DNA of 49,735 bases from Campylobacterales bacterium (GTDB taxonomy: Bacteria; Campylobacterota; Campylobacteria; Campylobacterales; Sulfurimonadaceae). The DNA is taken from the NCBI GenBank assembly GCA_026390075.1, contig JAPLGP010000012.1:1-49735 (forward strand). Reading direction: 5' to 3'. Shown piece by piece: positions 4,196-25,118 of this stretch. Positions within the stretch are counted from its first letter, which is position 1; each line of letters starts with the position of its first letter. A program made the translations under genes and the position numbers. The notes under the pieces were generated by a model. It was given only the letters and a program-made list of their open reading frames with translations, was not told the DNA's origin and made no database searches.

Positions 4196-5131
4196 CTACA
4201 ACCTAAAGTTTACTTTATTTCTACCTGTATCTTTTGCATTGTACAACTCTTTATCCGCTTGTTCAAGTGTCATATCCAAAGTATCATTCACCTCTTTTTT
4301 AACTAAACCTATGCTTACAGTAAAACTTATTTTCTGATTATTATGATTGATGATAATTTTTTCTGTATCTTCTCTTATCTTTTGTAGTTTTTGTATGACG
4401 CTATCACTACAAGGAGATTGCATTATAAGAGCAAACTCTTCCCCACCCAACCTTCCAAATATATCTGTTTCATTCAAGTGTTTTTCAACTGTTTTTGTAA
4501 AAGCTTGCAGAGCTAAATCGCCCACTTTATGACTATAAGTATCATTAAGCAATTTAAATTTATCAAGGTCAAACATTGCAACAAAAATAAACTCATTATC
4601 TGGCAAAGCTTTTGCAAAAACTTCCTCACCTAGATTGAAAAAATTGCCTCGATTGTTTATAGCTGTTAGAAAATCTTTTTTAGCCATAAACTCTAGTTTT
4701 TCATTTGCTTCTTGTAACTTTTTACTTTGCATGGCTAGTTTTGTATGCGTTGTAATCATCGCAGCTTGTATCTCTTTTTGCTCAGTAATATCAACAGTTA
4801 TAGAATATTTTACTGTTCTTCCATCGGGCCATCTTAAAATTTCATCATATATTTGGAGCCAACTATCTGTTACTTCATCAAAAAAATGGTTAATGAGCTT
4901 TTCACTTTTGTAAACAGCTTCTCTTTTTTTTAGCTCATCTATTGTACACCAGCTACAAACTTCATTCTGTCCAAATATTTTTTTCCAACAATACTTTTCT
5001 CGTGGTGCATACATGTTTTCAGTCATAAGCTTATTTGCATAAACCACTTCATAAGTGTCCACATCTACAGCATATGCAGCAAATGGAATTACATCCAACA
5101 GAGCTTCAAAAAGTTTATTTTCTTGCATCAT
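4196..5131 (-). CDS. Diguanylate cyclase with Cys-containing PAS-like domain
   Basis: A 311-residue soluble protein. Residues 1-130 are the same input module as in the neighbouring kinase, including [26 protein letters not shown] and the Cys set C48, C59, C62. A short helix leads to a GGDEF domain (about 150-311) with [11 protein letters not shown] and an intact GGEEF active site at 229-233, so it should make cyclic di-GMP. No RxxD inhibitory site is seen five residues before GGEEF. Two starting Met codons are adjacent; either works. It is separated from the CheY-like gene upstream by 6 bases and is almost certainly co-transcribed with it. The shared input module implies that one stimulus drives both c-di-GMP synthesis and a phosphorelay. 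Confidence 0.88.
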
Positions 5132-5137
5132 TTATCC

Positions 5138-5551
5138 CTATAAATCATCATCTGAGAGTTCTAAATCATCTTCATTTTCACTGTATGTATATTCTAAAAA
5201 AGCTTCACCAATTATTTCTGCCAATTTTTCATCCGTAATAGGTTTTAACATATATCCAATCGCACCTGCTTTGATGGAATCAATCACCATATCTTCTTGA
5301 CCATGTGAGGTAACCATAATTATTTTTGCATTCGTATCAATTTTCATAATATGCTTTACTGCAGTAATACCATCCATATCAGGCATAGTGATATCCATAG
5401 TTACTAAATCTGGCTGAACACTCTCATAAATATCTATAGCTTCTTGCCCTGTTTTAGCTTGTCCAACAACTTCATGGCCTAACTTTTCTACAATAGTTAT
5501 TATCTTTTTTCTAATTATCAGAGAATCATCTACTATTAAAATTTTTAACAT
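5138..5551 (-). CDS. CheY-like single-domain response regulator
   Basis: A 137-residue stand-alone receiver. The phospho-acceptor is D53 (VTMDITMPDMDG), with acidic pair D8/D9, T81 (MVTS) and K103 (MLKPI). The last 20 residues are an acidic extension (SENEDDLELSDDDL) not found in flagellar CheY. There is no output domain, so it must act by binding a partner. It lies between the CheX-like phosphatase and the cyclase in an operon with the CheA-like kinase. The likely flow is kinase to this receiver, with CheX removing the phosphate. Whether it touches the flagellar motor cannot be told from the sequence. Confidence 0.9.
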   Translation of the reverse strand: MLKILIVDDSLIIRKKIITIVEKLGHEVVGQAKTGQEAIDIYESVQPDLVTMDITMPDMDGITAVKHIMKIDTNAKIIMVTSHGQEDMVIDSIKAGAIGYMLKPITDEKLAEIIGEAFLEYTYSENEDDLELSDDDL

Positions 5552-5571
5552 TTTTGCTCCTAATTTATAAA

Positions 5572-6042
5572 TTATTTCGATGCGTCTTTAGCAATAATAG
5601 CACTCATGCTAAGTTCACCAAAGTGTGTTCTAATATTTGCTGAGACAATCTTTGAATCTTTGTGTTTTTTAATATTTGAAGCATCATTTATGCTGATTGG
5701 AGGTGTTATAGTCACACCTTTACCTCTTTTTGGGAAGGTTGGTAGTGCGAGACCGATGATTGTATTTATCACTTCACCTGTTACACTCTCTTTTATCTCT
5801 TCTTCTTCCTCTGAAGCGACATCTTCTCCTTCCATAAAAACTTCAACGAGTTTATCTAGCATTGTATCGTCAAAACTAATGACAACCATCATATTAAGCT
5901 CTCCACCAACACCTATCATAGCGGTATGAGATTTTAAATTTAAATCAACACTATCCTCTTCTCGAGCAATATCATCTATTTCAATACCCATATCTTCTGT
6001 AAAAAAAAGTTTTGATTGAAGTATTAATGAATCTAATATCAT
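5572..6042 (-). CDS. CheX-like chemotaxis phosphatase
   Basis: A 156-residue protein with the CheX/FliY-type layout: a central helix ESVTGEVINTIIGLAL that holds the Glu and Asn pair (pattern E-x2-N within GEVIN) used for CheY-P dephosphorylation in this family, a preceding acidic linker (EDVASEEEEE), and C-terminal strands ending in SMSAIIAKD. It lies 20 bases from the CheY-like receiver and 12 bases after the CheA-like kinase, so it probably dephosphorylates that receiver. It is confidently in the CheX/CheC fold group. The assignment to CheX over CheC rests on the single Glu-Asn helix. Confidence 0.8.
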   Translation of the reverse strand: MILDSLILQSKLFFTEDMGIEIDDIAREEDSVDLNLKSHTAMIGVGGELNMMVVISFDDTMLDKLVEVFMEGEDVASEEEEEIKESVTGEVINTIIGLALPTFPKRGKGVTITPPISINDASNIKKHKDSKIVSANIRTHFGELSMSAIIAKDASK

Positions 6043-6054
6043 GTTATTTTCCTT

Positions 6055-8544: not shown

Positions 8545-8626
8545 TAATTTTCCTCTATGGGTATTTTAAACTTCACATGCCAATTCAGTTATATCTCTAA
8601 AATAATAATTTAAAATTAAACTGACT

Positions 8627-9064
8627 TTATTCTTCTACTGATGTAATATTAAAAGGATTGATAATATTTATGTCTAAATTTTGAAAGTCTTTTTCATTTC
8701 TAGTCACTAAAATAAAATTTTTGTTCCTACTTGTAGAGGCTATGAGAGAATCCATAATGGGCATTGGTTTACCCATACTTTTAAGCTTTTGATTGAGTTT
8801 ACCCCATTCAAGCATAACTTCTACATCGATATCGACAATCTTACCGCTAAATCTTTTTAGTAAATCATCATATAGCCAAGTTAATAATTTAGTTTTTTTA
8901 TTATGGTCTTGAAGTTTTTCGATTCCTGATTTTATTTCGCCTATCGTAATCACAGACAAAAAAATGGAACTCTCTGCTTGTTTTTCTAAAAATGTAAGTA
9001 CATTTTTGTTTGGCTGTTTTGATATAAGCTCAGAAATTATATTTGTATCTAAAAGGTATTTCAA
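8627..9064 (-). CDS. VapC-family PIN-domain toxin
   Basis: A 145-residue PIN-domain nuclease of the VapC/FitB type, which would cleave RNA (often tRNA) when free of its antitoxin. All four acidic metal ligands can be placed: D6 (LLDTNIISEL), E43 (TIGEI), D105 (IMDSLIA) and D126 (TRNEKDF). Length is normal and nothing is truncated. The start overlaps the antitoxin stop by 4 bases, the usual coupling of antitoxin-first pairs. It stands alone between a signalling operon and a housekeeping methyltransferase gene, a typical spot for a mobile toxin-antitoxin unit. Confidence 0.88.
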   Translation of the reverse strand: MKYLLDTNIISELISKQPNKNVLTFLEKQAESSIFLSVITIGEIKSGIEKLQDHNKKTKLLTWLYDDLLKRFSGKIVDIDVEVMLEWGKLNQKLKSMGKPMPIMDSLIASTSRNKNFILVTRNEKDFQNLDINIINPFNITSVEE

Positions 9065-9282
9065 AATTGGACTCTATCTTCATAAACTTCTTTTTCTCTC
9101 AAAAGTTCTATCTCACCACACAATGGCGAATTTTGAAAAAAACTCACTAAAGAATCCGTTTGCTTGAACTTCTCTTGAGCTGATTCAATTTTTATTTTTA
9201 AATCACTTGATGGGATATTGTTTAAAAAAAACATCACTTTCTCAAAGATATTATCATTTATATCTAATCTAATTGAATGCAT
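9061..9282 (-). CDS. Antitoxin partner of the VapC-like toxin
   Basis: A 73-residue protein encoded just upstream of and overlapping the toxin gene, the usual position of the antitoxin. The N-terminal MHSIRLDINDNIFEKVMFFLNNIP could form the strand-helix part of a small DNA-binding antitoxin. I do not recognise a PHD, AbrB or standard ribbon-helix-helix signature. The acidic C-terminus (EIELLREKEVYEDRVQF) is the likely toxin-binding segment. GAGG stands six bases before the ATG. The function is inferred from position; the sequence family is unassigned. Confidence 0.7.
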   Translation of the reverse strand: MHSIRLDINDNIFEKVMFFLNNIPSSDLKIKIESAQEKFKQTDSLVSFFQNSPLCGEIELLREKEVYEDRVQF

Positions 9283-9316
9283 TGTACACCTCTTTTTTTG
9301 CTAACTTATTGCCAAT

Positions 9317-9322
9317 ATTGTA
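9317..9322 (-). promoter_or_regulatory. Candidate -10 element for the toxin-antitoxin pair
   Basis: On the minus strand GCTACAAT (extended -10 style TACAAT) lies 34 bases before the antitoxin ATG. No -35 was identified. By-eye call. Confidence 0.4.
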
Positions 9323-9329
9323 GCATAGA

Positions 9330-10328
9330 TTATTTTTTCCTAAACTTTATCATCTTAAACCGCTCACCCAAAAAATTAGGCAATATCAGCATTTTCACCT
9401 TTTCTAACTCTTGCTTATATATTTTATCTTCCACATGCCCTTTTAACATCTCTAAAAGTTCTAAAATGCCCATGTCAATGAGAGCTAGCATTTGAGTTTT
9501 CAACTCTATAAACTTCACTCCAGCTTCTTCGTAAGCGTCTTTAACATGTGCAAAAGTGACATCGTAGGTTATATCTGATTTTGCAAAAAGTTCTTCTCTT
9601 TTTATCTTTTCATCAAAAAATGGAATTACATTATGTTTTTCATACACTCTTAGAGAAAAATCAGGTCGTGCCTGCATCTCTCCATAGTCAAAACTCATAA
9701 ACTCAAACTTTCCACATGCCATACTCATCTCTTTGGCAAACTCTTCATATCCTAAAGCGATTTCACCTCTATCTTTATGATATTTTTTTGCTTTTTGGCT
9801 CACCCAATCATCATCCACATCAAATTCTATGGCGTGTTCATCGACTCTTGCAGTTTTTCCCTTGTAAAAAAGTTCACAAGGAAAGGCGTCAAAAATTTCA
9901 TTTGCAATAAAAAAAGCATTTTCACACTTGAACTCACTCAAAGATTTATAGTGAGTCAGCTTTAGGGCATCGCCAAACGACTCTTGAAAGTAGTTTTTTT
10001 GAAACTCCTGAAGCGTATCAAATCTCTCAATAATCACAAACTTTAATGACTCAAGAAGTTTAGGTCGGAGCGTGTAGATAAACTCACAAACATCTGCCAA
10101 AAAATAGCCGTGATGCGCACCTATCTCACAGACTACGCCATTTTCTGCTAAAAAACCTTCATCCACCAAAGAGATGATATGTTTTGCGATAGTTCCGCCA
10201 AAAAATTTGCTCGTACTCACAGAGGTATAAAAATCGCCCTCTTTGCCTATGTTTTTATAAGTTGCGTAGTAGCCATTTTCGCCATAGAGCCACTCGCTCA
10301 TGTACGCACTAAATTTATGATTAAGCAT
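9330..10328 (-). CDS. MidA/NDUFAF7-like SAM-dependent methyltransferase
   Basis: A 332-residue protein of the Methyltransf_28 family, whose mitochondrial member NDUFAF7 (MidA) methylates an arginine of complex I. Visible parts are the N-terminal FSAYMSEWLYGENGYYA with GDFYTSVSTSKFFGG, a SAM-binding loop VCEIGAHHGYFLADV (about residues 63-77), and FFIANEIFDAFPCELF. Length is slightly short for the family but the core is complete. It stands alone between the toxin-antitoxin pair and a REP-like element. The bacterial substrate is not established. Two full copies of the 11-mer are at 9429 and 9710. Confidence 0.85.
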   Translation of the reverse strand: MLNHKFSAYMSEWLYGENGYYATYKNIGKEGDFYTSVSTSKFFGGTIAKHIISLVDEGFLAENGVVCEIGAHHGYFLADVCEFIYTLRPKLLESLKFVIIERFDTLQEFQKNYFQESFGDALKLTHYKSLSEFKCENAFFIANEIFDAFPCELFYKGKTARVDEHAIEFDVDDDWVSQKAKKYHKDRGEIALGYEEFAKEMSMACGKFEFMSFDYGEMQARPDFSLRVYEKHNVIPFFDEKIKREELFAKSDITYDVTFAHVKDAYEEAGVKFIELKTQMLALIDMGILELLEMLKGHVEDKIYKQELEKVKMLILPNFLGERFKMIKFRKK

Positions 10329-10348
10329 TTTGCACCCTTTGACTTACT

Positions 10349-10450
10349 AGACTTCTTACAAAACTAAGATTGCTTCGTCGTTTATTTCTTGGCACAAAAC
10401 CGTCATTGCGAACGAAGTGAAGCAATCTAAAAAGAGAAAGTTGCATTATG
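10349..10450. repeat. REP/MITE-like palindromic element, copy 2
   Basis: The same element as at 2601-2698, in inverted orientation. The left arm starting AGACTTCTTACAAAACT (10349) followed by AAGATTGCTTCG matches the reverse complement of the right end of copy 1. CGTCATTGCGAACGAAGTG and AGCAATCTAAAAAGAGA (10400-10436) match its left half. The centre holds about 20 extra bases and the last 15 bases have drifted. It ends directly at the argD stop codon (10452-10454), so the insertion may have set the C-terminus of ArgD. Confidence 0.75.
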
Positions 10451-10451
10451 A

Positions 10452-11636
10452 CTACAAAGCAGAAACAGCGCGCTCAAGAGACACAAAGCCCTCATCTATT
10501 TCCTCTTTTGTAATTGTAAGTGCAGGTAAAAGTCTTAGCGTATCTCTTCCAGCTTTTAAAACCATAACACCTTCTTCTCTTGCTCTAGTGATAACTTTTG
10601 CCAATGTATTGCCATCTTTTGCACGCAATCCGCACATCATACCGATGCCAACTTTAGATGTAAATATCTCTTGATGTGCCTTATAAAATTTCTCTAGTTC
10701 ACTATCAAAATACTCTATATTTTTTGCCAATGTACCATTTTCATACATTTCTTTTAAAATATCCACGACTTCACATGCCGCCGTTGCACTCAAATAATTT
10801 CCGCCAAAAGTTGAACCGTGATCCCCTGCGCTAAAAATATCTTTAAGTCCAGTCATAACAACGCCTATCGGAACTCCGCCACCTAGACCTTTTGCTAAAG
10901 TAATGACATCAGGAGTTATCTCATAAAGGTTGGAAGCTAGAAACTCACCCATTCTATAAATTCCAGTTTGAACTTCATCCACGATAAGTAAAATATTTTT
11001 AGACTTTAAAAGTTTTGCCAACTCTTGCACAGCTTGTTTGTCAAGTGGTTGCACTCCGCCCTCACCTTGAACGAGCTCTATCATAACCGCACAAGTATGG
11101 TCATCAAGCAAACTCTCGATTTGAGCGATGTTATCAGCGTACACAAAACCATCAGGAAATGGTCCAAAATAGTTGTGCAGAGAAGCTTGTCCCGTCGCTT
11201 TTACGGTTGTAATTGTTCTGCCGTGAAAAGAGTGTTGCAAAGTGATGATTTTATATCTTTTTGCTTCGCCCTCTTTTTCACCAAATTTTCTAGCAATTTT
11301 AATCGCGCCCTCATTTGCTTCCGCACCGCTGTTTCCAAAAAAACACTTCATATCGTAGCCACTTGCTTCAACTATCTTTTGAGCAGCTTTTGCCTGTGGA
11401 GCGGTATAATAAAGGTTTGAGCTATGCGTGATATTTGCTATCTGCTTACAAATCGCATCATTGACTCTTTTGTTTGCATGACCCACACTGCACACCGCGA
11501 TACCTGATGTAAAATCTATATATTTTTTGCCATTCGCATCCACTAATCTCGCATTATCGCCACTTACAAACTCTACATCTGCTCTTGCGTATGTAGGCAG
11601 AACATATTTTTTATCCAATTCAACTGTAGTACTCAT
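10452..11636 (-). CDS. argD: Acetylornithine aminotransferase
   Basis: A 394-residue class III PLP aminotransferase. In arginine biosynthesis it moves an amino group from glutamate to N-acetylglutamate semialdehyde. Motifs present include YIDFTSGIAVCSVGHANKRV, FFGNSGAEANEGAIKIARK, HSFHGRTITTVKATGQ, VDEVQTGIYRMGEF, and the PLP-binding Lys in TLAKGLGGGVPIG. Length is typical. It is downstream of and overlaps (4 bases) the molybdopterin oxidoreductase gene, so the two are probably co-transcribed, although no metabolic link is obvious. A REP-like element abuts its 3' end. Confidence 0.95.
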   Translation of the reverse strand: MSTTVELDKKYVLPTYARADVEFVSGDNARLVDANGKKYIDFTSGIAVCSVGHANKRVNDAICKQIANITHSSNLYYTAPQAKAAQKIVEASGYDMKCFFGNSGAEANEGAIKIARKFGEKEGEAKRYKIITLQHSFHGRTITTVKATGQASLHNYFGPFPDGFVYADNIAQIESLLDDHTCAVMIELVQGEGGVQPLDKQAVQELAKLLKSKNILLIVDEVQTGIYRMGEFLASNLYEITPDVITLAKGLGGGVPIGVVMTGLKDIFSAGDHGSTFGGNYLSATAACEVVDILKEMYENGTLAKNIEYFDSELEKFYKAHQEIFTSKVGIGMMCGLRAKDGNTLAKVITRAREEGVMVLKAGRDTLRLLPALTITKEEIDEGFVSLERAVSAL

Positions 11637-13366
11637 CTATAAACCTCTACTTTATTTTTTTGATATATTGCACATTTCCCATCATGAGAGTGCTTTGAAG
11701 TTGTTAAATTATTTACACCTTTTGTACCGCTGTAAATCAAAACGCAATCATTTCGTAAATCGTAATTATACTTAACTTTTAGCCGTGCACTTCCACATGC
11801 CGAAGATATTGTAACAATTTCATCTTCATCAAATCCAAGGGATGGATGGAGATAAACACTTTCTTGGCGGTTAAACTGTGAATTTAAACTTGTAAAGCTT
11901 TTTGGAGTGAGTAAAAAAAGTTTTTCACTCATGTTAAAATCAACATCAAACTCTTCCAAAAACTGAAACTCTCCATCGTCCGTGTCAAAACCCTCTTTGT
12001 AAGGAACCTCTCTTCTACTTTGCACATGTCGAGTGCCATCTGTTTTTTGTACCGAAAAACTTTTAAAATGTTCAAGATAAAATGCTTCACTTTCCAAATT
12101 TATCTCAAAAACACGACACAAATAGGCACTCAAATCATATTCGCTTATGCCGTGATTTACTTCAGCGACTTTTTCCATCGGCATCATTGCGTTATGCGAG
12201 TAGGATGTTCGGATGTCATTTTTATGTAAAAAACTCTTTGCTGGAAGTACCAAATCTGCAATTTCACTTGTTTCATTTTCATACAGTCCAAAATAGACAA
12301 CATTTGTAACATGAGAGATAGACTCTTTCACTCTGAGTGAATTTGGCATTTGTGAGAGAGGATTTGCACCTTGAATAAACACTGTTTTATAGTTGCTAAA
12401 CTCCGTATTTACCTTTGAGACTCTTTTTGCTTTTGTGTTAAAAGGGGAAGTGATGTTTTCTTTTGAGTTGCCCAAATAGGCAACACCACATCCCTCTTTG
12501 CCAAAAAGTCCAAGCATGACTGCAAAGGCATCAATAGCTCTTAAAACATCTGCTCCATCGCTGTATTTTTGAATGCCTACACCGCAAACTATGGCTACTT
12601 TTTTCCCTTTTACTAACTCTAAAACTTTACCAATTTGCCCAAGCGTCACATCAATAGTATCGAGTGTAGCTTTTATTCTTACATTTTGCGTAAGCTCATA
12701 ATACTCTTCAAAACCTGACGCATAAGCATTTAAGAAGAGTTCATCCTGTCCATTTTCTATATATAAAAAACGGCTCAAAAGCATCGCCAACGCTAAATCG
12801 CCATGTGGTTTTATCTGAATATGCAAGTCTGCATTTTGTGCTATTTTTGTTTTTACAGGGTCTATGACGATGATAGTTTTACCTTTTAAAAGTGGTAAAA
12901 GATGAGAAGATGTGGCATGTGGATTTCTTCCCCAAAGCAGAACAACTTCAGATTTTGCTATCTCGCCAAGAGGCATATTTTTGTTTGAGCCTCTGCCCAT
13001 CATTATCCCCGCTTCTCCCGCGCTATCACACAAACTTCCCTCTGTTAAAGTCGCACAAAAAGTTGCAAAAAAGTGGTCAGTCACACCCTGCATAAGTCCA
13101 AAATTTCCAACTCCTCGGTAGTGCAAGATTTCATCTTTTTTTGTTGTGGATAGAATCTCTTTTAATTTTAAAAGTGCTTCATCTAAAGTTATCTCTTTAC
13201 CTTTATAAGTCGGCATGTGGATTTGTTTATGTTTGTCATAATGATTTAGATGTGGACACAAAAAGCCTTGTGTATGTCCAGATTTTAAAGCTTTTAACTT
13301 ACCATCTTCATAAATAATTCCACATGCATCATAACAATCAAGCGGACAGGCTGTTAAAATTTTCAT
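11633..13366 (-). CDS. Molybdopterin oxidoreductase (short catalytic subunit)
   Basis: A 577-residue member of the DMSO-reductase superfamily. The N-terminal ACPLDCYDACG with a later FLCPHLNHYD gives a 4Fe-4S site (four Cys). LLWGRNPHATSSHLLPLL and VIDPVKTKIAQNADLHIQIKP mark the pterin-binding domain, and LVLPAKSF and the C-terminal beta-barrel domain follow. I chose the ATG at 13366, which has AAAGG nine to ten bases upstream, over a longer frame beginning at 13420. There is no Tat signal or companion Fe-S or membrane subunit, so it is a cytoplasmic single-subunit enzyme. The substrate is unknown. Three copies of the 11-mer (11791, and 10 of 11 at 12914 and 13212) and a partial one at 13318 lie inside it. 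Confidence 0.85.
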   Translation of the reverse strand: MKILTACPLDCYDACGIIYEDGKLKALKSGHTQGFLCPHLNHYDKHKQIHMPTYKGKEITLDEALLKLKEILSTTKKDEILHYRGVGNFGLMQGVTDHFFATFCATLTEGSLCDSAGEAGIMMGRGSNKNMPLGEIAKSEVVLLWGRNPHATSSHLLPLLKGKTIIVIDPVKTKIAQNADLHIQIKPHGDLALAMLLSRFLYIENGQDELFLNAYASGFEEYYELTQNVRIKATLDTIDVTLGQIGKVLELVKGKKVAIVCGVGIQKYSDGADVLRAIDAFAVMLGLFGKEGCGVAYLGNSKENITSPFNTKAKRVSKVNTEFSNYKTVFIQGANPLSQMPNSLRVKESISHVTNVVYFGLYENETSEIADLVLPAKSFLHKNDIRTSYSHNAMMPMEKVAEVNHGISEYDLSAYLCRVFEINLESEAFYLEHFKSFSVQKTDGTRHVQSRREVPYKEGFDTDDGEFQFLEEFDVDFNMSEKLFLLTPKSFTSLNSQFNRQESVYLHPSLGFDEDEIVTISSACGSARLKVKYNYDLRNDCVLIYSGTKGVNNLTTSKHSHDGKCAIYQKNKVEVYR

Positions 13367-13479: not shown

Positions 13480-14427
13480 ATGTCTGTTTTAGATAATGTT
13501 GATGCTTCTACAAATTTAGCGAAAAATAACGAACTGCAATTATTGGTTTTTAGAATCAGTAACGCCTCAGAATCTGCTTTTTATGCAATAAATGTTTTTA
13601 AAACAAGAGAAGTGGTAGAATCAAGAAACCATTTTCTCACACAGATACCATCGTCTCATCATTTGCTCGAGGGTACAATTATTCTTCGTGGCTTACAAAT
13701 CCCTATTTTAAATCTTCCTGCATGGTTAGGTGCAACTTTAACAAAAGAAGAGATAAAACTCTCAAACATACTTGTTTGTGATTTTAACGGTGTAATCATC
13801 GGTCTAAGAATTATGTCGGCATACAGAGTTATAAAGAAAAACTGGAATGAAATGCATGCACCTGACAGCTACAGACTCAAAAGTGATGGTCTTGTTATGA
13901 ATGATACAAGACTCGAAGATGGGAGCTTATGTCTTATTTTAGATTATGAAAAACTTTTAGCAGATGTCATTCCTCAAGCTCTAGTAGATGTTGTATCTGA
14001 TAGTGAACATTTTAGAGATTTAGAGATGCCAGAAAAATTAAAAAATGGAACAGTTCTAATAGCAGAAGACTCTAAAACTGCACAAAGAGCGCTTATACAA
14101 ATATTTGCAAAAGCAAAAATTGATATGAAACTCTTTGATAATGGTAAAAAACTTGTTGATTATCTTATAACTTTAGGTAAAAGCGCTGTTGATGAAACAC
14201 CAGTTATTATTACAGATATAGAGATGCCTGAGATGTCTGGATTTACTGTTATTCAAACATTAAAAGCAAATCCACTTTTTAACAAAATCCCCATTATTGT
14301 CAATAGCTCTATGACAGGTGAAAACAACAAAAGAGAAGCGCAATCTCTTGGAGCGGATGGCTTTATAGATAAAACAAAAAGTCATAACATCATACCTTTA
14401 ATCATTGAAACGATGAGAGGCGCATAA
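13480..14427 (+). CDS. cheV: CheV chemotaxis coupling protein
   Basis: A 315-residue fusion of a CheW domain (about 15-165; LQLLVFRI, EGTIILRGLQIPILNLP) and a receiver (about 190-315) with D246 (IITDIEMPEMSG) and K298 (FIDKTK) in the phosphorylation site. CheV links chemoreceptors to CheA and can be tuned by phosphorylation. Helicobacter and Campylobacter carry one or more copies. Length and order are normal. It is transcribed alone, divergent from the molybdopterin gene, with AAGGG five bases before the ATG. The P in ITDIEMP and the acidic pair (AEDS) are intact, so phosphorylation is expected. Confidence 0.95.
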   Translation: MSVLDNVDASTNLAKNNELQLLVFRISNASESAFYAINVFKTREVVESRNHFLTQIPSSHHLLEGTIILRGLQIPILNLPAWLGATLTKEEIKLSNILVCDFNGVIIGLRIMSAYRVIKKNWNEMHAPDSYRLKSDGLVMNDTRLEDGSLCLILDYEKLLADVIPQALVDVVSDSEHFRDLEMPEKLKNGTVLIAEDSKTAQRALIQIFAKAKIDMKLFDNGKKLVDYLITLGKSAVDETPVIITDIEMPEMSGFTVIQTLKANPLFNKIPIIVNSSMTGENNKREAQSLGADGFIDKTKSHNIIPLIIETMRGA

Positions 14428-17191: not shown

Positions 17192-17707
17192 TTATTCTTT
17201 AGTCAGTTCTTTCGCACACTCTTTTTCTACAGGTTCATTCCACATGCCAAGCTTCAAAAATTTTGCGCTTGCTTGTGCTTTTTCAAAACTATATCTAAAC
17301 TCTTCATCTTTAAATGTTGATTTATTCATAGCTAACCCTTTTTCAAGCAAAAGTTCTGAAAGTGTTTTTTGTCCTTGTGCATAAATAAGGCACCTACTCT
17401 CTCTAAATTCCACATGATACATCTGCTGACTTTTTAAAATTCCATAGGTAAAATATTTTAAATCAGGATGCTTTTTGTAAAAACTCTCTATCGTCTCTTT
17501 ACATTTTGAACCATTTTCAGAATTTTCCAACAAACTCTCTAAAGTCAAAATTCCATAAGGTCTGCAAATAAAATTATTTTTTTCTATGTTAAATCTTTGT
17601 AAAGAATTTGAGTCAATACTAAGTAAAATTGCCATAGTAGGCTCTTTTGCACTTAAAGAGTGTATAAAAAGAGTGTATAAAAGGAAAAAGTATATTATTT
17701 TATTCAT
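17192..17707 (-). CDS. Secreted SNase-like (thermonuclease fold) protein
   Basis: A 171-residue protein with a signal peptide (1-20, ending SLSAKE). The C-terminal half matches the staphylococcal-nuclease fold: RCLIYAQGQKTLSELLLEKGLAM, then a helix F..AQASAKFLKLGMWNEP, the usual AK..GLW ending. The N-terminal half is diverged, and I cannot place the full catalytic Arg-Glu-Arg set, so nuclease activity is uncertain. Three Cys in the mature part (in FICRPYG, SKCKE and SRCLI) plus one near the end could form disulfides in the periplasm. The GMWNE segment is written by one full copy of the 11-mer (17238). Confidence 0.65.
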   Translation of the reverse strand: MNKIIYFFLLYTLFIHSLSAKEPTMAILLSIDSNSLQRFNIEKNNFICRPYGILTLESLLENSENGSKCKETIESFYKKHPDLKYFTYGILKSQQMYHVEFRESRCLIYAQGQKTLSELLLEKGLAMNKSTFKDEEFRYSFEKAQASAKFLKLGMWNEPVEKECAKELTKE

Positions 17708-17730: not shown

Positions 17731-19965
17731 TTATTCATTCATCTTTCCTACTTGTATAATAAAATAACTCTTATTATCAACTTTTTTGTATGTTAAATTA
17801 CCATCAAAATGTTCATTCATAATTCTTCTGCCCATATAAAGTCCAAGCCCAGTTCCTTTGCCTTTGTCTTTTGTTGTAAGGTATGGAGTGAAGAGTTTGT
17901 CAATAATTGAATCATCAACTCCACCTGCATTATCTTCAACTACTATCTCTTTTGGTGTAGTATATTTGACACAGATACATTTTTCTATCTCTAAATCAGA
18001 TTTTTCAAAAGCATCTTTAGAATTAGAAAATAGGTTCAATAAAACTTGTTCCAACATATCCTCCCTCCCATACACAACATCATCTAAAGAGGAATCATTT
18101 TCTATAACTATATTTATATTGTGTGCGCTATATTGTACTGACACGAAATCATTTATAGTTTTAATAACATCGCGTAAATGAAAGTTTTTTTCTTCACTGC
18201 GATTACTCGAATAACTCATGAAGGAGTCTATAACATTTGACATTTTTTGACACTGTTTTTGTACAAATACAGCATGTTCTTCTATCCCATCTGAGGTAAG
18301 TTTATCTAATGTATTGGATAATGATAATTTTATTGATGATGCACTTATTGCATTAATAGGCTGTCTCCATTGATGGGCTATCATACTAATCATCTCACCC
18401 ATTTGAGCCATTTTAGACTGTTGAAACATCAGCGTATCTCTTTGTTTTGACTCTAATTCAATTTGCCTTATAGCAGAGATATCTATAAGTATAAAAACAT
18501 GCTTTAAAGAGTTTTCAATATACGATTTGTAACTCTGAATCATGAAAGAAATATTTTTATGTTTATTTTTTAGAGTGATTTCAAACTTATCTGAGTCTTT
18601 ATGTACACTTTTTAATATTTTTAGACAATCTGTCTTCTGAAAATAATCTCTAATTTCAATATTCTTCATATCTCCATTCATAGGGATATCAAGCATAGCT
18701 GAAAATGATTTACTAGCTTTATATTTTTGTTGTAGTTTGTCATATATGATATAATGAAAATCATCTATCTCTGATAAAATTTGTAAAATATCTAACTCTC
18801 GAACATCTTTTGTAATATCTATAAATGTGGTTACATAGTGCTTTTGCATCTCTTTTGTCAATAACTTTCTTACCTGCACTTTAAAGGTTATCATATCATT
18901 AGAGAAATTTTTCATAATGACTCTATGCTCAATTTCTGGATTTTTCATTACATATTCTTGCCATTCATTTATACAATGAGTTGAAGATATATATCTGTTA
19001 TCATCTACACTAATAAATTTATCACAAAGACATCGTTCTTCATCTAAGAACTGTTCTAAACTATTTTTTCTAAAAAAGTTCAAAAATGCCTGATTCGATT
19101 CAACTATTTTACCATTAGCATTCACAATTATCATATTATCCTGCATATTTATAATTGTTTTGAGATGTTCCAAATTCTCTTTATATCTATTTTTTTCTAA
19201 TTCCAAGCTATCTTGAAGTTTTAGTAATTCTATTTTGTATTGTGAACTTATATACATACCACAATCTAATTTTTTTAATTTATCAATTAAATCAGAAATA
19301 TACTTTTTTTGTATTATTGAACCATGTTGCGGTAAAATTAGCTCAATATCTAAAGCTTGTATTTTATTGAGTGAATAGTTTAATATCTCTCTACTTGGCA
19401 TATAATTTTCATGAAATAGTTTTACAGCTTCAAAATAATTTTCATCAGCATAAAAATTCCAAGACTCATTGAGTCCTCCAAAAATATCTGATGAAAAAAG
19501 AGTTTTTGTCATGCTATCATATGTAACAAATGCACCTGGTGCGTGTGCATAGGGTGTTGTTAAGAACTTTAAAATTTTACCATTTGACAATTGTAATACA
19601 CTATTATCACTAATATAGAGATACTCAGAATTTATACCATAGTGTTTTATAAGTGCTGCTGTTCTTTTATGTGTAACTACTTGTAAATCATCTCTATTTA
19701 TAATTTTTTCAAGTAATGGAATAGCGGCACAGATATCTGGATCTTGGTGATGCGCTATAATATATTTAACATTTTTCATTGATGTTAAAGTTTCTACTTT
19801 TGCTATGAGTTCATCATACTCCAACATAGAACCTGGGTCTATAAGAACACAACTCTCACCATTTAATATTAAGTAAGGATGACACTGAAAAGAATCATTT
19901 TCTAGATACTTTCCAACCCAATATATATCTTGTGCAACTTCAATTGCTTTATTGAAATCTAACAT
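17731..19965 (-). CDS. Diiron (ODP/metallo-beta-lactamase fold) PAS histidine kinase
   Basis: A 744-residue soluble kinase. Residues 1-240 form a metallo-beta-lactamase fold of the flavodiiron or oxygen-binding diiron (ODP) type: HHQDPD (72-77), H141 (YAHAPGAF), D160 (SSDIFGG) and H214 (PQHGSI) are the expected metal ligands. Two PAS-like regions follow (about 270-390 and 395-500). HisKA has H531 in MIAHQWRQPINAIS. HATPase_c has LLNLFSNSKDAFE, VEDNAGGVD and KGTGLGLYMGRRIM. In related proteins the diiron site binds oxygen, so oxygen or redox sensing is the best inference. It lies directly after the REC-GGDEF-EAL gene with no spacer, so that gene product is a likely partner. Confidence 0.85.
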   Translation of the reverse strand: MLDFNKAIEVAQDIYWVGKYLENDSFQCHPYLILNGESCVLIDPGSMLEYDELIAKVETLTSMKNVKYIIAHHQDPDICAAIPLLEKIINRDDLQVVTHKRTAALIKHYGINSEYLYISDNSVLQLSNGKILKFLTTPYAHAPGAFVTYDSMTKTLFSSDIFGGLNESWNFYADENYFEAVKLFHENYMPSREILNYSLNKIQALDIELILPQHGSIIQKKYISDLIDKLKKLDCGMYISSQYKIELLKLQDSLELEKNRYKENLEHLKTIINMQDNMIIVNANGKIVESNQAFLNFFRKNSLEQFLDEERCLCDKFISVDDNRYISSTHCINEWQEYVMKNPEIEHRVIMKNFSNDMITFKVQVRKLLTKEMQKHYVTTFIDITKDVRELDILQILSEIDDFHYIIYDKLQQKYKASKSFSAMLDIPMNGDMKNIEIRDYFQKTDCLKILKSVHKDSDKFEITLKNKHKNISFMIQSYKSYIENSLKHVFILIDISAIRQIELESKQRDTLMFQQSKMAQMGEMISMIAHQWRQPINAISASSIKLSLSNTLDKLTSDGIEEHAVFVQKQCQKMSNVIDSFMSYSSNRSEEKNFHLRDVIKTINDFVSVQYSAHNINIVIENDSSLDDVVYGREDMLEQVLLNLFSNSKDAFEKSDLEIEKCICVKYTTPKEIVVEDNAGGVDDSIIDKLFTPYLTTKDKGKGTGLGLYMGRRIMNEHFDGNLTYKKVDNKSYFIIQVGKMNE

Positions 19966-21681
19966 CTAAATTACCTCCGGTAAAGGTTTCCCAACAAAAT
20001 ATCCTTGAGCATAATCAACACCTAAATCTTTCACAATATTAAATATATTTTCTGAGTGAACAAACTCTGCAATAGTTTTTTTGTTTGTCTTCTTAGCAAG
20101 ATATATCATAGTTTCAACAATATGCTTTGAACTAGTATTTGTATCTAAATCTTTTATAAATAACCCGTCAATTTTTATAATATCTACATTTAAGTTTTGA
20201 ATACGCGTAAAATTTGAGTTTTGTGCACCAAAATCATCAAGAGCCAATAAAAATCCCGCATCTTTTATCTCTTCTAATTTAAGAGTAACATTTTTAACAT
20301 CTTTGTCATTGATATTTTCAAGTATTTCTAATGTAACATTCGATGAATTAATTTCATACTTATCACATAAATACTGAAGCATCAAAAAAAGCTCATCATC
20401 TTTTAAATCTTCATCTGTAATATTTACACTAAAAGAAATATCTTTAAAATCTTTAAAAAATTCAAATGTTTGATTGAGCATAATTTTTGTAAGTGTTGGA
20501 ATTAATCCAGAAACTTTTGCACTATCTAAAAAATAGAAAGGTGTTATAACTTCATTACCTTCAACTATTCTAGCAAGAGCCTCATACTTTGTTATTCTAC
20601 CTTCTTTAAACTCATATATGGGCTGATAGAATGCTTTTAACTGATGATTTTTTATTGCATCTTTAGTTTTTTTTGCCCACTTTAAAAGCTCTTTTTGTTT
20701 CTCCAAAAGTGACATGTTTTTTTGGTAAATAGATATAGAATTTTTATGATTATTTCTACCATTTTGAAGAGCTAATTTTACTTTATTATAGGGAAGTGTC
20801 GTATCTTCATCTGAGCATTCTAAAAGTCCTATTGATGCACTTAAGTTAAACTCTTCATCATCAACTAGATAATTATATTTGTTAAATTGTTGTTGAATAT
20901 TTTCTGCAAAAAACAAAGTTTTCGTTATCTCCATATCATCTAGCATCATCATAAACTCATCACCATAAAGTTTATATAGTTTAATCTCATTCGTTGAAAA
21001 AGCTTGTAAAAATAAAGAAACTTGCTTTATTATTTCATCCCCTATTTTATAGCTATGGGTTAGATTTATAAAATTAAAATTATCAATATTAAACAACATT
21101 AGAATTGGTTTTTTGGTAAAATTCATATAATCTATTTTTAGTTTTTCAACATTATAAAGATTTGTCATAGAATCTTTTTGAAGCATATCTATTAATGATT
21201 TTGATTGTTGTTCAATAATATTTTTTTGTTTCTTTAATTCAATCTGTAAACGATGGTCAAAGTCTTTTTTAACTTGTTCAGAGTGTACTATATTTATTAT
21301 TTTAGACAAAATATTCATTAGTTGAGATTGTTCAATTGGTTTTAGTATATACCCATCAATATTTAAAGCTATCGAATCTAATAAAATATTTTTACCTGAG
21401 TGCGCTGTAATAAATATGGATTTAAATTCTTTATGTTCTAATCTTAAAAGACGCATCATTTCTAATCCATCCATAATAGGCATATTGATATCACTTATCA
21501 CAAGGTCAATACTATTATTTTTAAAGAGTTCCAAGCCCTCTTTCCCATTTTTAGCCACAAACATACTTATGAAAAACATCTTCAAAAGCCCGCTGAGCTC
21601 TTTTCTAGCATCATCATCATCTTCAACATATAATACAGTTATATCTTTTGCATATTCAATTATTGTTTTTAGCTCTTCCAT
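19966..21681 (-). CDS. Response regulator REC-GGDEF(degenerate)-EAL, likely c-di-GMP phosphodiesterase
   Basis: A 571-residue protein. The receiver (about 10-125) has D64 (VISDINMPIMDG) and K114 (ILKPI). The GGDEF-like domain (about 170-320) has YGDEF at 239-243, so the first Gly is lost and cyclase activity is doubtful. The EAL domain (about 335-571) has EAL at 367-369 (YEALARI), DDFGAQNSNF and KIDGLFIKDL, all needed residues apparently present, so it should hydrolyse cyclic di-GMP. It sits immediately upstream of the diiron-PAS kinase and is probably its target. AGGGG stands before the ATG. Confidence 0.88.
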   Translation of the reverse strand: MEELKTIIEYAKDITVLYVEDDDDARKELSGLLKMFFISMFVAKNGKEGLELFKNNSIDLVISDINMPIMDGLEMMRLLRLEHKEFKSIFITAHSGKNILLDSIALNIDGYILKPIEQSQLMNILSKIINIVHSEQVKKDFDHRLQIELKKQKNIIEQQSKSLIDMLQKDSMTNLYNVEKLKIDYMNFTKKPILMLFNIDNFNFINLTHSYKIGDEIIKQVSLFLQAFSTNEIKLYKLYGDEFMMMLDDMEITKTLFFAENIQQQFNKYNYLVDDEEFNLSASIGLLECSDEDTTLPYNKVKLALQNGRNNHKNSISIYQKNMSLLEKQKELLKWAKKTKDAIKNHQLKAFYQPIYEFKEGRITKYEALARIVEGNEVITPFYFLDSAKVSGLIPTLTKIMLNQTFEFFKDFKDISFSVNITDEDLKDDELFLMLQYLCDKYEINSSNVTLEILENINDKDVKNVTLKLEEIKDAGFLLALDDFGAQNSNFTRIQNLNVDIIKIDGLFIKDLDTNTSSKHIVETMIYLAKKTNKKTIAEFVHSENIFNIVKDLGVDYAQGYFVGKPLPEVI

Positions 21682-21814
21682 ACTGCATCCCCTCTAAAGT
21701 TGATAACCACCATCACTCTGCGTGTTACAATATCACAGAAATCACCAAGTCCGAAATGATTATATCACTCCAATCTAAAATATAATATATATCAATAAAT
21801 AATCCTACCAGAGC

Positions 21815-23437
21815 CTAAAGCTCACTAGATGGTTCCTTTATAAAGTAGCCTTGAGCATAATGAAAACCTAGTTTTCTGCCTTCATTTAAAATCTCTTCAC
21901 TCTCAACACCAACTAAAATACTTTTAATATTTACCTTATTTATATAATCAAGCAAAAAAGAGAGAACATTTTTCATATTTGGGTCTATCAAAGATTTTTG
22001 AAGTAAAATTTGATTTATTTTAATATATTCTGGTTGCAATATAGAGAGTAATTCTATATTTATATTAGCAGAGGCAAATCCTTTTAGTGCTATTTTAAAT
22101 CCCATTTCTTTTAATTTTAACAAAGATTTTACCACACTACTAGATGCTTCTAATGATTCATAGTGCATAATATCTAAAATAACCCTACTATATTCAACTT
22201 TATATTGATTACTTAAATATACAAGATAATCTTTCATAGCACTATTTTTCCACTCAGCATCTGTAAGATTTATATGAAAATAAAAATTAGTTGAAGCCAG
22301 TTTCATAAAACTTTGCTTAAAGACACTTTGTGATATTTCTTCAAGTATTCCAGCTTTTGCACTTAAATCAATAAAAAATGCTGGTAGTACATATTTGCTT
22401 CCTTGTTTAATTCTAGCAAAAACTTCATACGATAGTGTTTTCATACTGTTTATATCAACTATAGGCTGATAAAACGGTATGATAGTCTCTTGTTTTAACG
22501 CATCAAGTGTAATTCCCAACCATGAAAGAGCATTATTTTTTTTTGCTTCTTCCATATCAATGTCCATTTTAACAACTAAATTACTATGTTCGTCACTTTT
22601 TATATTTTCAACAACAGAATTGATATGAAGTAAAAAATCTTCACTTGTATGATTAGAATTACTGCTATCTTTGACTAAAATGACACCATAAGAAAGTGTT
22701 ATATAAATTTTTAAATTATTAAATCTTATAATGAGGTTATTATGATTACTAGAAAAAGCTTGTACTGCTTCAAGTGTATTATCTAGATAATGTTTATTTA
22801 TTCCACATATAATTACATCATTATAAAGTTGTAATATATCGTCATCTTCAACACCAAAATTTGATAAATGCTCTTTTACCCCTTCTATAATAAAATCTTT
22901 AGTCTCACAACCAAAGCTTTGAACAATCTCGTTAAACTTATCTACAACTATTAAAAATAGCGCTTGGTCATTATTTTCTAATAAATTTGTAAGCTTTTTA
23001 TCTTTTTCACTATATATAATATCTTTTTTATCAATATCAATTAAATGACTCACTTTATAGAGCAGTTGAAACAGTTTGTCCATAGAGACGGGCTTAAGTA
23101 ATATCCCATCGACTTGAAATTCTATTGAGTTTCTTAAGTTTTCATTTGTATTATGAGCTGTCATTATAATAATGTGTTGATTTGGGTTTATTTTAAGTAT
23201 TTCACTTATTAAATCAACACCACTCATTTTAGGCATTGTTAAATCTGTAATTATTAAATCATACTTTTTTTTATTGTACTCTTCGAGTGCTTCTTTGCCA
23301 TTTTCTACAGATTTGACATCTTTATATAAGAGTTTAAATATATTTTCATACTGCTCTCTTGTATCCTCTTCATCCTCAGAGTACAAAACAGAAATATTTT
23401 TTGCAACACTATTTAATTTTTGATGTATATCTAACAT
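21815..23437 (-). CDS. REC protein with degenerate GGDEF and EAL domains
   Basis: A 540-residue paralogue of the preceding protein with the same order. The receiver looks functional: D65 (IITDLTMPKMSG) and K115 (LLKPV). The GGDEF position reads YNDVI (205-209) and the EAL position reads EVF (338-340, YEVFARI). The EAL DDFG motif is replaced by KGFA. Both enzyme sites are therefore dead, while the fold (FYQPIVDINS, FHINLTD, GYFIKEP) is kept. It may bind cyclic di-GMP or act as a phosphorylation-controlled scaffold. A 133-base spacer separates it from the active paralogue. No frameshift is seen, so selection has kept the reading frame. Confidence 0.85.
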   Translation of the reverse strand: MLDIHQKLNSVAKNISVLYSEDEEDTREQYENIFKLLYKDVKSVENGKEALEEYNKKKYDLIITDLTMPKMSGVDLISEILKINPNQHIIIMTAHNTNENLRNSIEFQVDGILLKPVSMDKLFQLLYKVSHLIDIDKKDIIYSEKDKKLTNLLENNDQALFLIVVDKFNEIVQSFGCETKDFIIEGVKEHLSNFGVEDDDILQLYNDVIICGINKHYLDNTLEAVQAFSSNHNNLIIRFNNLKIYITLSYGVILVKDSSNSNHTSEDFLLHINSVVENIKSDEHSNLVVKMDIDMEEAKKNNALSWLGITLDALKQETIIPFYQPIVDINSMKTLSYEVFARIKQGSKYVLPAFFIDLSAKAGILEEISQSVFKQSFMKLASTNFYFHINLTDAEWKNSAMKDYLVYLSNQYKVEYSRVILDIMHYESLEASSSVVKSLLKLKEMGFKIALKGFASANINIELLSILQPEYIKINQILLQKSLIDPNMKNVLSFLLDYINKVNIKSILVGVESEEILNEGRKLGFHYAQGYFIKEPSSEL

Positions 23438-23457
23438 TTTATGCTCCTAAAATTTTA

Positions 23458-24774
23458 TCAAACAGAAATAATTACTAAATTCTTACCGCCTTTTTTTGCT
23501 TTTAAAATAGCATCGTTTACTCTAAATAAAATATTATTTTCATTGTCATCACGCCTAAAAACAGTTACACCAAAAGAACATGTAAATTTAGATTTATATT
23601 GTTTGTTAATAGATAATCTTAAATCATCTGCTCTTTTAAAAGCATTTTCTAGATTCATATTTTTAAAAATAATTACAAAGGCTTCACCACCATAGCGTGC
23701 TAAAAAGTCGTCCTTATTAAGATTCGATTTGATAAAGTTTGCCACAGAGCGTATAACTTTATCACCTACATGATTTCCATACAAATTATTAATTTCAGTT
23801 AAATTATCAATATTTATCATTACTAAAGACACATCAGTATATTTTTTATTTTGAAAATTTTTGTATATTTCACTAAAATAATTATTAAATTTATATTTAT
23901 TGTACAAATTGGTAAGAGTATCAATTTCAGATAATTTTTTCAGTTCTCTATTATTCTTATCCATATTATTTATATCTGTAAATACTGAAATTAGTGTATT
24001 AATATTTGGATAAAATTTATTTGTTAGTTGAAATACTTTAAGGGTATTATTTTTATCTTTTATATAGACTTTTTTATCATTTTCTTCAAAGTTTAAAACA
24101 TCGCGTTTATACTCTGCATAATCTTTATATACTACATTTGACATCTCATTTTTTATAAAAGTATATAAATTCTCATTTACTGCTATACACTCTTCATAAC
24201 TTTCATAACCTAAAAAATCTAAAAATGAATTATTAATATATTTAATTTTTCCATCTCTCTCAAGAACTGTAAATACAGGAGATAGTTCCAATGCAAGATT
24301 TAAAAGTTCTTTCTCTTCTTGCATTACTTCAAACTGATTGATAAACTCTAAATCAAAAATACTTTCATAGAGTCGTTCAAAAAAAACTTCTTTATTGAGT
24401 GGCTTAATTAAATATTTATTTATACCCAGTTCTAATGCTTTTAACAGGTGCGCATTTTCTATAAAACCTGTTAAAATTATAAAGCTTACTTCAAAATTTA
24501 ATTTTTGTATCTCTTCTATGAGTTGCAATCCATTCATCTGGGGCATATTAATATCTGTAATAACTATATTTGGAGTAAACTCTTTATACAATTTTAATGC
24601 TTCAACACCATCTTTAGCCAATATGACATTATCAAAAAACATACTCAATATATCTTTCATAATTTCTCTATATGACTCATCATCGTCAACATAGAGTATG
24701 CTATATTTATTTGCATATTTTAAAAGATATTCTTCTGCATTAATATGCAACTTAAATTCTTTATTTAAAAACAT
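23458..24774 (-). CDS. Response regulator REC-PAS-GGDEF (GGEAF variant)
   Basis: A 438-residue protein: receiver (about 20-135) with D74 (VITDINMPQMNG) and K124 (LIKPL); PAS domain (about 160-275; VFTVLERDGKIKYINNSFLDFLGY); and a GGDEF domain (about 285-438) with DTLTNLYNKYKFN and an active-site GGEAF at 362-366. The Glu in the fourth place of GGEEF is Ala, so activity may be weak or lost. GGAG lies eight bases before the ATG. It heads the four-gene cluster and is 20 bases from the next gene. It has no transmembrane part, so it takes signals from a separate kinase. Confidence 0.85.
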   Translation of the reverse strand: MFLNKEFKLHINAEEYLLKYANKYSILYVDDDESYREIMKDILSMFFDNVILAKDGVEALKLYKEFTPNIVITDINMPQMNGLQLIEEIQKLNFEVSFIILTGFIENAHLLKALELGINKYLIKPLNKEVFFERLYESIFDLEFINQFEVMQEEKELLNLALELSPVFTVLERDGKIKYINNSFLDFLGYESYEECIAVNENLYTFIKNEMSNVVYKDYAEYKRDVLNFEENDKKVYIKDKNNTLKVFQLTNKFYPNINTLISVFTDINNMDKNNRELKKLSEIDTLTNLYNKYKFNNYFSEIYKNFQNKKYTDVSLVMINIDNLTEINNLYGNHVGDKVIRSVANFIKSNLNKDDFLARYGGEAFVIIFKNMNLENAFKRADDLRLSINKQYKSKFTCSFGVTVFRRDDNENNILFRVNDAILKAKKGGKNLVIISV

Positions 24775-24941
24775 TTTTTATGCTCCAAAATCCTAATTTT
24801 ATAATTTATTCAATTATTATACCATGGAATATTTATGGAGTTAAGAAAAATATTTCAAATATAATTATCAAACATAGATAAAATAATAGTTTTAATGATT
24901 CTTATGTATAATAATATTAATAAACTCGATGAAGGGAAGCA

Positions 24942-25118
24942 ATGAATGATTTCAAACTAAAACTAATTCTTAGTTTGCTTGGTGGTGTGGTTTTTGCATT
25001 TTTATTTATTTTACTTGCTTTCGCACTTCCAGTTAAAAAAGAAGAAGCTATCATCATACAACCTAAGAGTCAGTTAGATGCTATTTCTAAAGCTGTACAA
25101 GAAAGATTAGAACGCTAA
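24942..25118 (+). CDS. 58-residue single-span membrane protein
   Basis: A short frame, MNDFKLKLILSLLGG onward, with one strongly hydrophobic helix at about residues 8-30 and a polar C-terminal helix ending in AISKAVQERLER. GAAGGGAA stands five bases before the ATG. The codon use is normal for its surroundings. It lies between the REC-PAS-GGDEF gene (divergent) and htpG (convergent), with the 13-bp motif hairpin just after its stop. I do not recognise a family. It is a real gene by its ribosome site, topology and position, with function unknown. Confidence 0.6.
   Translation: MNDFKLKLILSLLGGVVFAFLFILLAFALPVKKEEAIIIQPKSQLDAISKAVQERLER

Follow-up and report, generated by a model that had tools for sequence, protein, structure and literature searches.

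The four-gene cassette

The window analysed here is a 49,735-nucleotide stretch of DNA from a Sulfurimonas-like Campylobacterales bacterium of the Sulfurimonadaceae (contig JAPLGP010000012.1). Positions 17731-24774 of its minus strand hold four genes, named here G, E2, E1 and K in that order, which a sequence-only reading had described as three response regulators of cyclic diguanosine monophosphate (c-di-GMP) metabolism and a kinase. The coordinates and order given there proved exact. G (23458-24774, 438 amino acids) is a REC-PAS-GGDEF protein with phospho-acceptor D74, a GGEAF motif and no RxxD inhibitory site (I-site). E2 (21815-23437, 540 amino acids) joins a REC domain (D65) to a degenerate GGDEF and a degenerate EAL domain. 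E1 (19966-21681, 571 amino acids) has the order REC(D64)-GGDEF-EAL, with YGDEF in the cyclase-type domain and a complete EAL catalytic set. K (17731-19965, 744 amino acids) is a soluble protein in which an N-terminal ODP (oxygen-binding diiron protein) domain at residues 1-240 is followed by a helix, two PAS-like units, HisKA with H531, and HATPase. The gaps between the genes measure 20 bases (G/E2), 133 bases (E2/E1) and 0 bases (E1/K), and a purine-rich stretch resembling GGAG, AGGA or GAGG lies 5' of all four starts.

The same four-gene order recurs in the nearest relative found, locus L131 of Sulfurimonas sp. S03.Bin072, whose kinase is 87% identical to K. For this one genome pair, the ratio of nonsynonymous to synonymous substitution rates (dN/dS) is 0.105 for K, 0.135 for E1, 0.069 for E2 and 0.064 for G, beside 0.052 for the neighbouring HSP90 gene. 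All four cassette genes are thus under purifying selection, and the dead E2 is conserved as well as the others. Because the order recurs with dN/dS between 0.06 and 0.14, the cassette is more than a chance arrangement.

An ODP-type sensor domain fused to a soluble kinase

Profile, fold and ligand set all support the assignment of the K N-terminus as an ODP-type domain. Pfam ODP (PF19583) matches residues 26-215 at 1e-61, with 208.6 bits against a cut-off of 27.2, and the match spans profile positions 1-194 of 194. The nearest proteins in the PDB are oxygen-binding diiron proteins, at 2e-25 (6qrq) and 4.3e-21. An AlphaFold model of K built from 14 sequences (mean pLDDT 70.5, pTM 0.44) places a metallo-beta-lactamase (MBL)-type domain up to about residue 232, a helix at 241-272, PAS-like units at 278-383 and 403-495, the dimerization and histidine phosphotransfer (DHp) helices, and a catalytic domain. 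Foldseek ranked ODP chains of 6qrq and 6qwo first to sixth for this model, with TM scores of 0.79-0.81 by target, and flavodiiron proteins lower.

The metal-site positions of K read H73, D75, D77, I78, H141, D160, Q213 and H214, with HHQDPD at 72-77. The seven ODP ligands, along with L, I or V at position 78, are found in K and in all but one of the 49 other ODP-kinase rows of a comparison of 132 distinct domains (145 rows, identical ones merged); the exception is a truncated row, gapped at positions 73 and 75. In three flavodiiron proteins from the genus, E75, H78 and L213 stand at these places. Motif 5 of K is Gln-His, and HxDxD stands in place of the flavodiiron HxExDH; this Gln is among the ODP ligand letters (PMC7785958; this and the other papers cited are drawn on in part). 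Since the ODP ligand set is present and the flavodiiron set is not, the site is of the sensor type. The diiron ligands pointed out from sequence (HHQDPD, H141, D160 and H214) are therefore present, but they make up an ODP set and not the flavodiiron one. Such a site is not kept by default: in two ODP-GGDEF proteins, L112 and L113, the seven ligand positions read NEDYDRY and NEDYEKY, so that the metal site, most of whose letters are gone, is probably lost.

The kinase core of K is intact. HisKA matches residues 522-590 at 1.8e-4 (21.9 bits, under the curated cut-off of 26.9) and HATPase_c matches 634-735 at 2.8e-12. The motifs H531, NLFSNS, VEDNAGG and GTGLG are in place, and the H, N, G1 and G2 boxes are also kept in L131. 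The highest 19-residue Kyte-Doolittle mean in K is 1.00; K consequently has no membrane segment, and a membrane sensor was ruled out for want of a hydrophobic stretch.

Output proteins of the cassette

The receivers of E1, E2 and G each have the acidic pair, the phosphorylatable Asp, the Thr and the Lys. Beyond the receivers, the three proteins differ in how much of their output machinery is kept. E1 matches EAL at 4.3e-57 and REC at 2.3e-23, plus GGDEF. Aligned to the EAL domain of 8pps (3.3e-27), it keeps the EAL, N, E, DD, K, E and Q letters, which we take to be the catalytic positions; the motifs are kept in L131 also. E1 is likely to be an active c-di-GMP phosphodiesterase, and its EAL is the sole output domain in the cassette that looks clearly active.

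E2 matches REC at 2.2e-24, EAL at 4.4e-36 and GGDEF weakly at 8e-7. Its GGDEF position reads YNDVI, the motif being gone, and its EAL domain has LKGF for LDDFG, which removes the DD pair, LDIM for LEIxE (E to D) and LVGVE for xAEGVE, which removes the AEG glutamate. These motifs, degenerate in both domains, make E2 a likely non-catalytic partner or binding regulator.

G matches GGDEF at 3.2e-30 and REC at 2.6e-24, with PAS_8 at 8.5e-4, below the cut-off. Its GGEAF motif keeps the third-position Glu and changes the fourth position, and NKDD stands where the RxxD I-site is expected. Among 98 GGDEF domains compared, GGEAF occurs in two, those of the window and L131, and the same is true of the YGDEF of E1. 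Cyclase activity of G is uncertain on these letters. On this reading the cassette holds a probable phosphodiesterase, a dead protein and a cyclase whose activity is doubtful.

Genes and signals around the cassette

A gene for an SNase-like protein (17192-17707, minus strand, 171 amino acids; hydrophobic N-terminus, Pfam SNase at 8.5e-5) starts 23 bases downstream of K and adjoins the cassette in L131 too, at 67% identity. A clear ribosome site was not found for it, and whether it is part of the cassette is unsure. Upstream, the intergenic region at 24775-24941 contains a possible cassette promoter on the minus strand at 24844-24816, TTAACT and TATAAT spaced by 17 bases, with TG before the second hexamer. 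The promoter consensus scan found three sites where shuffled sequence gives 3.1, no excess, so this site is not evidence by itself. Rfam and transfer RNA scans over the window were empty. Between the cassette and the HSP90 gene, a frame of 58 amino acids with one hydrophobic stretch (24942-25118, plus strand) runs divergently from the cassette. A CheW-REC gene of CheV-like layout (13480-14427, plus strand) lies 3.3 kb from the cassette; such a gene is also near the cassette of L131.

The ODP family and c-di-GMP

PF19583 matches at E 0.001 occur in 37 of 60 genomes of the genus, the window's included, flavodiiron and weak MBL proteins being counted. The family was compared in a quick tree, with many open forks and no bootstrap, of 131 rows; the truncated L056 was left out, as were L125, L141, L182 and L196, for which the picked open reading frames held no ODP frame. 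K pairs with L131 (support 99) inside a 65-row clade (98) and outside a 53-row clade (98) that contains all kinases linked to nitrite reduction (nir) genes. The tree thus gives no support to a place for K in that nir-linked clade. The 29 nir-linked kinases and the unlinked L044 make up one group with many open forks, and the branching order among the branch of K, the branch of L032, L033 and L135, and a 57-row clade is not resolved.

Proteins in which ODP is fused to GGDEF account for 47 of the 131 tree rows, and one of them, L150, also has EAL. The named records among them, mostly metagenome-assembled genomes, bear the titles of ten phyla: Pseudomonadota, Campylobacterota, Nitrospirota, Acidobacteriota, Deferribacterota, Nitrospinota, Spirochaetota, Aquificota, Chloroflexota and Thermodesulfobacteriota. 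Where neighbourhoods were read, 67 of 127 ODP rows have GGDEF, EAL or HD-GYP close at hand, as a fusion in 47 and no more than three genes away in 20, with no p-value attached since the rows are related; the background is 22 of 291 genes at least seven places away in the same loci. Counting a weak PilZ-type match as well raises the figure to 72 of 127, and 16 of 26 standalone ODPs are linked to GGDEF, EAL or HD-GYP. Four of the seven kinases of K's type outside the window have c-di-GMP genes, REC-GGDEF or REC-GGDEF-EAL, within three genes: L131, L032 (same contig as L163), L033 (same contig as L138) and L137.

Other arrangements occur as well. The genome of the window has a second ODP, a standalone protein, at L052 (G000:C26:67000-85000, positions 7132-12666), in the order REC/weak PilZ, ODP, PAS-PAS-kinase and REC-HD-GYP. 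The pairing of ODP with a PilZ-type gene is seen in 15 of 131 tree rows. The REC/PilZ gene of L052 is split over two overlapping frames of 116 and 411 amino acids, most relatives having one of about 500. The ODP-kinase locus L163 (= L032) carries a FIST-PAS-kinase at 6561-8885 together with REC-SpoIIE and REC-GGDEF genes. In the two Leptospiraceae proteins scanned (L132 and L146), ODP is joined to a phosphatase of SpoIIE type and to TPR repeats, which gives the sensor a further kind of output.

ODP-kinases beside nitrite and nitric oxide reduction genes

Seventeen of the 60 genomes of the genus have a shorter ODP-kinase, of about 510 amino acids, of the type paired with an OmpR regulator. The nirE gene lies directly upstream of the ODP-kinase in 16 of the 17 loci, for the most part within norCB-nirSJFE clusters, and genes for both NirS and a NorB-type protein are in the stretch read in 13 of the 17. 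The exceptions are L042, with nirS and no norB nearby; L043, a short contig; L046, with nirE and no nirS; and L044, with neither. The genomes of L044 and L046 gave no Cytochrom_D1 match. In L040 the contig ends within the gene for the OmpR regulator, and in L043 that gene lies beyond the contig. Five further loci from one listing, and eight from another of 18 loci in which ten were contigs already counted, bring the nir-linked total to 29 (L036-L043, L045-L049, L053-L055, L100, L115, L116, L129, L130 and eight of L144-L173). The radical SAM gene of these clusters is NirJ-type at 1.4e-112, below that model's cut-off. In another family the kinase/OmpR pair is not adjacent to nir genes, yet all four genomes have a NirS-type match.

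This link of ODP-kinases to nir and nitric oxide reductase (nor) genes is new here, as are the ODP-GGDEF fusions in records of ten phyla, and the ODP-kinase/OmpR pair behind nirE becomes a candidate regulator of nitrite and nitric oxide (NO) respiration. The strong signal is adjacency. NirS presence itself is weakly associated: of the 17 genus genomes that have the pair, 14 gave a NirS-type match of at least 140 bits, as did 23 of the 43 that lack it (Fisher p 0.045). The nir background of 54 in 291 distant genes is useless as a comparison, because these genes come from the same nir loci.

The genome of the window has NirS, NirF, NirE and NorB. Its norC-norB-nirS-cytc-nirJ-nirF-nirE cluster lies at L067 (G000:C59:1-18000, positions 4952-12224), where no ODP-kinase/OmpR pair follows nirE; a 4HBT thioesterase and a proC-like gene occupy that place, and a phage-integrase-type gene lies at 1612-2778. 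A known NO regulator standing in place of the ODP-kinase in nirS genomes would argue for NO as the signal. The place was read in eight nirS genomes without ODP-kinase, in fragments from one more such genome (G018) and in the cluster of the window genome. The eight picked neighbours were Sel1-repeat, MraW, receiver-only and integrase genes, one having no match.

Proposed mechanism

From the observed domains, residues, gene order and conservation, K is probably a soluble diiron gas-sensing kinase that controls c-di-GMP through E1, with E2 and G as partners. The non-heme diiron centre of the ODP domain, located in the cytoplasm, would bind a small oxidant, oxygen (O2) or NO. The bound state would pass via the helix and the two PAS-like domains to the DHp helix and change autophosphorylation at H531, and K would then phosphorylate the receivers of E1, E2 and G. 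Phosphorylation of E1 may alter the activity of its EAL domain and thereby the level of c-di-GMP. E2, as a catalytically dead receiver, could tune E1 or compete for phosphate, like HnoD on HnoB in Shewanella, and G would add cyclase if its GGEAF motif works and would otherwise be a second tuner. Along a gradient of oxygen or of nitrate/NO, the cells would thereby change between swimming and an attached way of life.

Several points weigh against this model. Metal binding, the ligand, phosphotransfer and the sign of the response are predictions from sequence, and phosphotransfer from K to E1, E2 and G is predicted from the adjacency of their genes. The PAS-like units fall in the least confident part of the structural model, and Pfam matches one of them weakly (0.0098); their assignment is therefore no more than likely. 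The GGDEF domains of both G and E1 could be inactive. With two of three outputs degenerate or odd, two-way setting of c-di-GMP is weaker than it looks. The tree has 49 kinase rows, the window's included; 41 of these are OmpR-regulator branch types, and none of the 41 has GGDEF, EAL or HD-GYP within three genes; nor do the remaining three of the seven kinases of K's type. Because the counts differ between branches, the c-di-GMP link is a property of some ODP branches, K's included, and not of all ODP-kinases. Finally, the genome has 65 GGDEF matches, one below the cut-off, which leaves the specificity of K open.

Oxygen, nitric oxide and other possible signals

The proposal that oxygen or redox state sets these regulators through K holds in part: the ODP-type domain and the intact kinase core are there, gene order and L131 tie them to the receivers, and links between ODP proteins and c-di-GMP domains are widespread. 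Oxygen as the signal is not settled, and the relatives beside nor and nir genes make NO about an equal candidate. O2 is the gas reported for ODPs (PMC7319448). NO fits about as well and from context is about as likely, because relatives in the same larger ODP clade adjoin the nir and nor genes, which make and remove NO, the genome has NirS and NorB, and it gave no HNOB/H-NOX match. The two gases are close to equal as ligand, and neither is established.

The strongest rival takes the ligand to be NO outright: Campylobacterota ODP-kinases would be non-heme diiron NO sensors, with an OmpR branch for nir/nor and the window's branch for c-di-GMP, replacing H-NOX. This may be so, though we hold it less probable than not. 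It draws on nirE directly upstream and NirS with NorB nearby in most genus loci, the thirteen further loci with the same link, the NirJ-type radical SAM gene, below its cut-off though it is, the unlinked kinases of the other family whose genomes all match NirS, and the nir and nor genes of the window genome with its lack of H-NOX. In addition, L032, L033 and L135, on a neighbouring tree branch, each have a FIST gene at most five genes from the ODP gene, and the FIST domain has been linked to NO sensing (PMC8846402). FIST is, however, common (45 of 60 genus genomes), and the FIST-kinase of L032 scores far below the NosP cut-off (68.5 versus 450 bits). The nir linkage would suit an O2 sensor equally, nitrite reduction genes being under oxygen control as well. 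K itself stands outside the nir-linked clade, the nor-nir cluster of its own genome has no ODP-kinase behind nirE, and the association with NirS presence is slight. Elsewhere in the phylum, Nss regulators handle NO and nitrate responses (Wolinella; PMC6682613), and the literature on ODPs presents them as sensors of oxygen and iron (PMC7319448).

That description also lends something to a second rival, in which K senses cellular iron or the general redox state, through metal occupancy or Fe(II)/Fe(III), and not a gas as such; a hemerythrin HD-GYP enzyme senses redox state and forms no O2 adduct (PMC8846402). This is unlikely, if only mildly disfavoured by one clade adjoining genes for electron acceptors (nir, nor), a weak point given that iron genes were not searched for. 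Less probable still is a kept metal site with its wiring elsewhere, K serving a distant regulator while the three receivers answer other kinases. The OmpR-type majority among ODP-kinases and the many GGDEF proteins of the genome would allow it, but K starts at the end of E1 without a gap, the order is kept in L131, and three other ODP-kinase loci have c-di-GMP receivers nearby. The last rival, in which the kinase is joined to an ordinary MBL-fold hydrolase or to a flavodiiron enzyme, has Lactamase_B matching K at 8.5e-9 in its favour but was ruled out as most improbable, since the ODP match is far better, no flavodoxin match was found, and D75, I78 and Q213 replace E, H and L.

Comparison with known systems

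The ODPs of Treponema denticola and Thermotoga maritima (6qrq, 6qwo, 6qnm and 6r9n) share their fold and ligand letters with K. The ODP of T. denticola is a protein of its own that partners a chemoreceptor (PMC7666581), whereas in K the ODP is fused to a kinase beside c-di-GMP receivers. According to PMC7319448, work from 2019 (Muok 2019) had already described ODPs that are encoded in signalling operons and ODPs that are joined to signalling domains; in the broad sense of section 8 of PMC7319448, K is one of the fused kind. That section mentions neither partner domains beyond chemoreceptors, nor a c-di-GMP cassette, nor a nir/nor link. The literature matches listed, read as titles and abstract beginnings with few subscription journals, describe no ODP-kinase that stands beside c-di-GMP receivers or within a nir/nor cluster. 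ODP signalling operons and fusions are thus known in general, and among those matches there was neither the three-regulator cassette nor the link to nir/nor.

A parallel in layout is the HnoX-HnoK-HnoB-HnoC-HnoD network of Shewanella oneidensis, in which a gas sensor and a kinase act on an active EAL receiver, HnoB, comparable to E1, and a degenerate receiver, HnoD, restrains HnoB as E2 might restrain E1 (PMC6335343, PMC8846402). There the heme H-NOX is a separate protein, while the non-heme diiron domain of K is built into the kinase; HnoD is of HD-GYP type and E2 of GGDEF-EAL type; and none of the four genes corresponds to the transcription factor HnoC. Legionella NosP-NahK-NarR, a sensor, a kinase and a REC protein with diguanylate cyclase and phosphodiesterase activity, resembles the K-E1 layout (PMC8846402), although NosP is a separate FIST-domain protein and not diiron. 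The hemerythrin-diguanylate cyclase of Vibrio cholerae and the hemerythrin-HD-GYP protein of Ferrovum feed a diiron O2 or redox input into c-di-GMP (PMC8846402), with input and output in one protein and no phosphorelay, unlike the cassette. Hemerythrin and ODP have unrelated folds.

Significance

A census of c-di-GMP inputs names globin, PAS-heme, H-NOX, FIST and hemerythrin as gas or redox inputs, and by word count the words 'ODP', 'diiron' and 'lactamase' are absent from its available text (PMC8846402). Should the proposed roles of ODP kinases and cyclases hold, that census would lack a widespread class of sensor. A bolder and tentative view is that the ODP-kinases of Campylobacterota are a heme-free NO-sensor family with a diiron site, its OmpR branch acting on norCB-nirS and the window's branch on c-di-GMP through an active EAL and a dead tuner. 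If true, the family would be a heme-free counterpart of the H-NOX/HnoK network, which the ODP-GGDEF fusions in ten phyla would extend. The regulation of respiration in free-living Campylobacterota is little known (PMC6682613), and for this role the ODP-kinase/OmpR pair that follows nirE offers a direct candidate, one that could be tested with purified protein.

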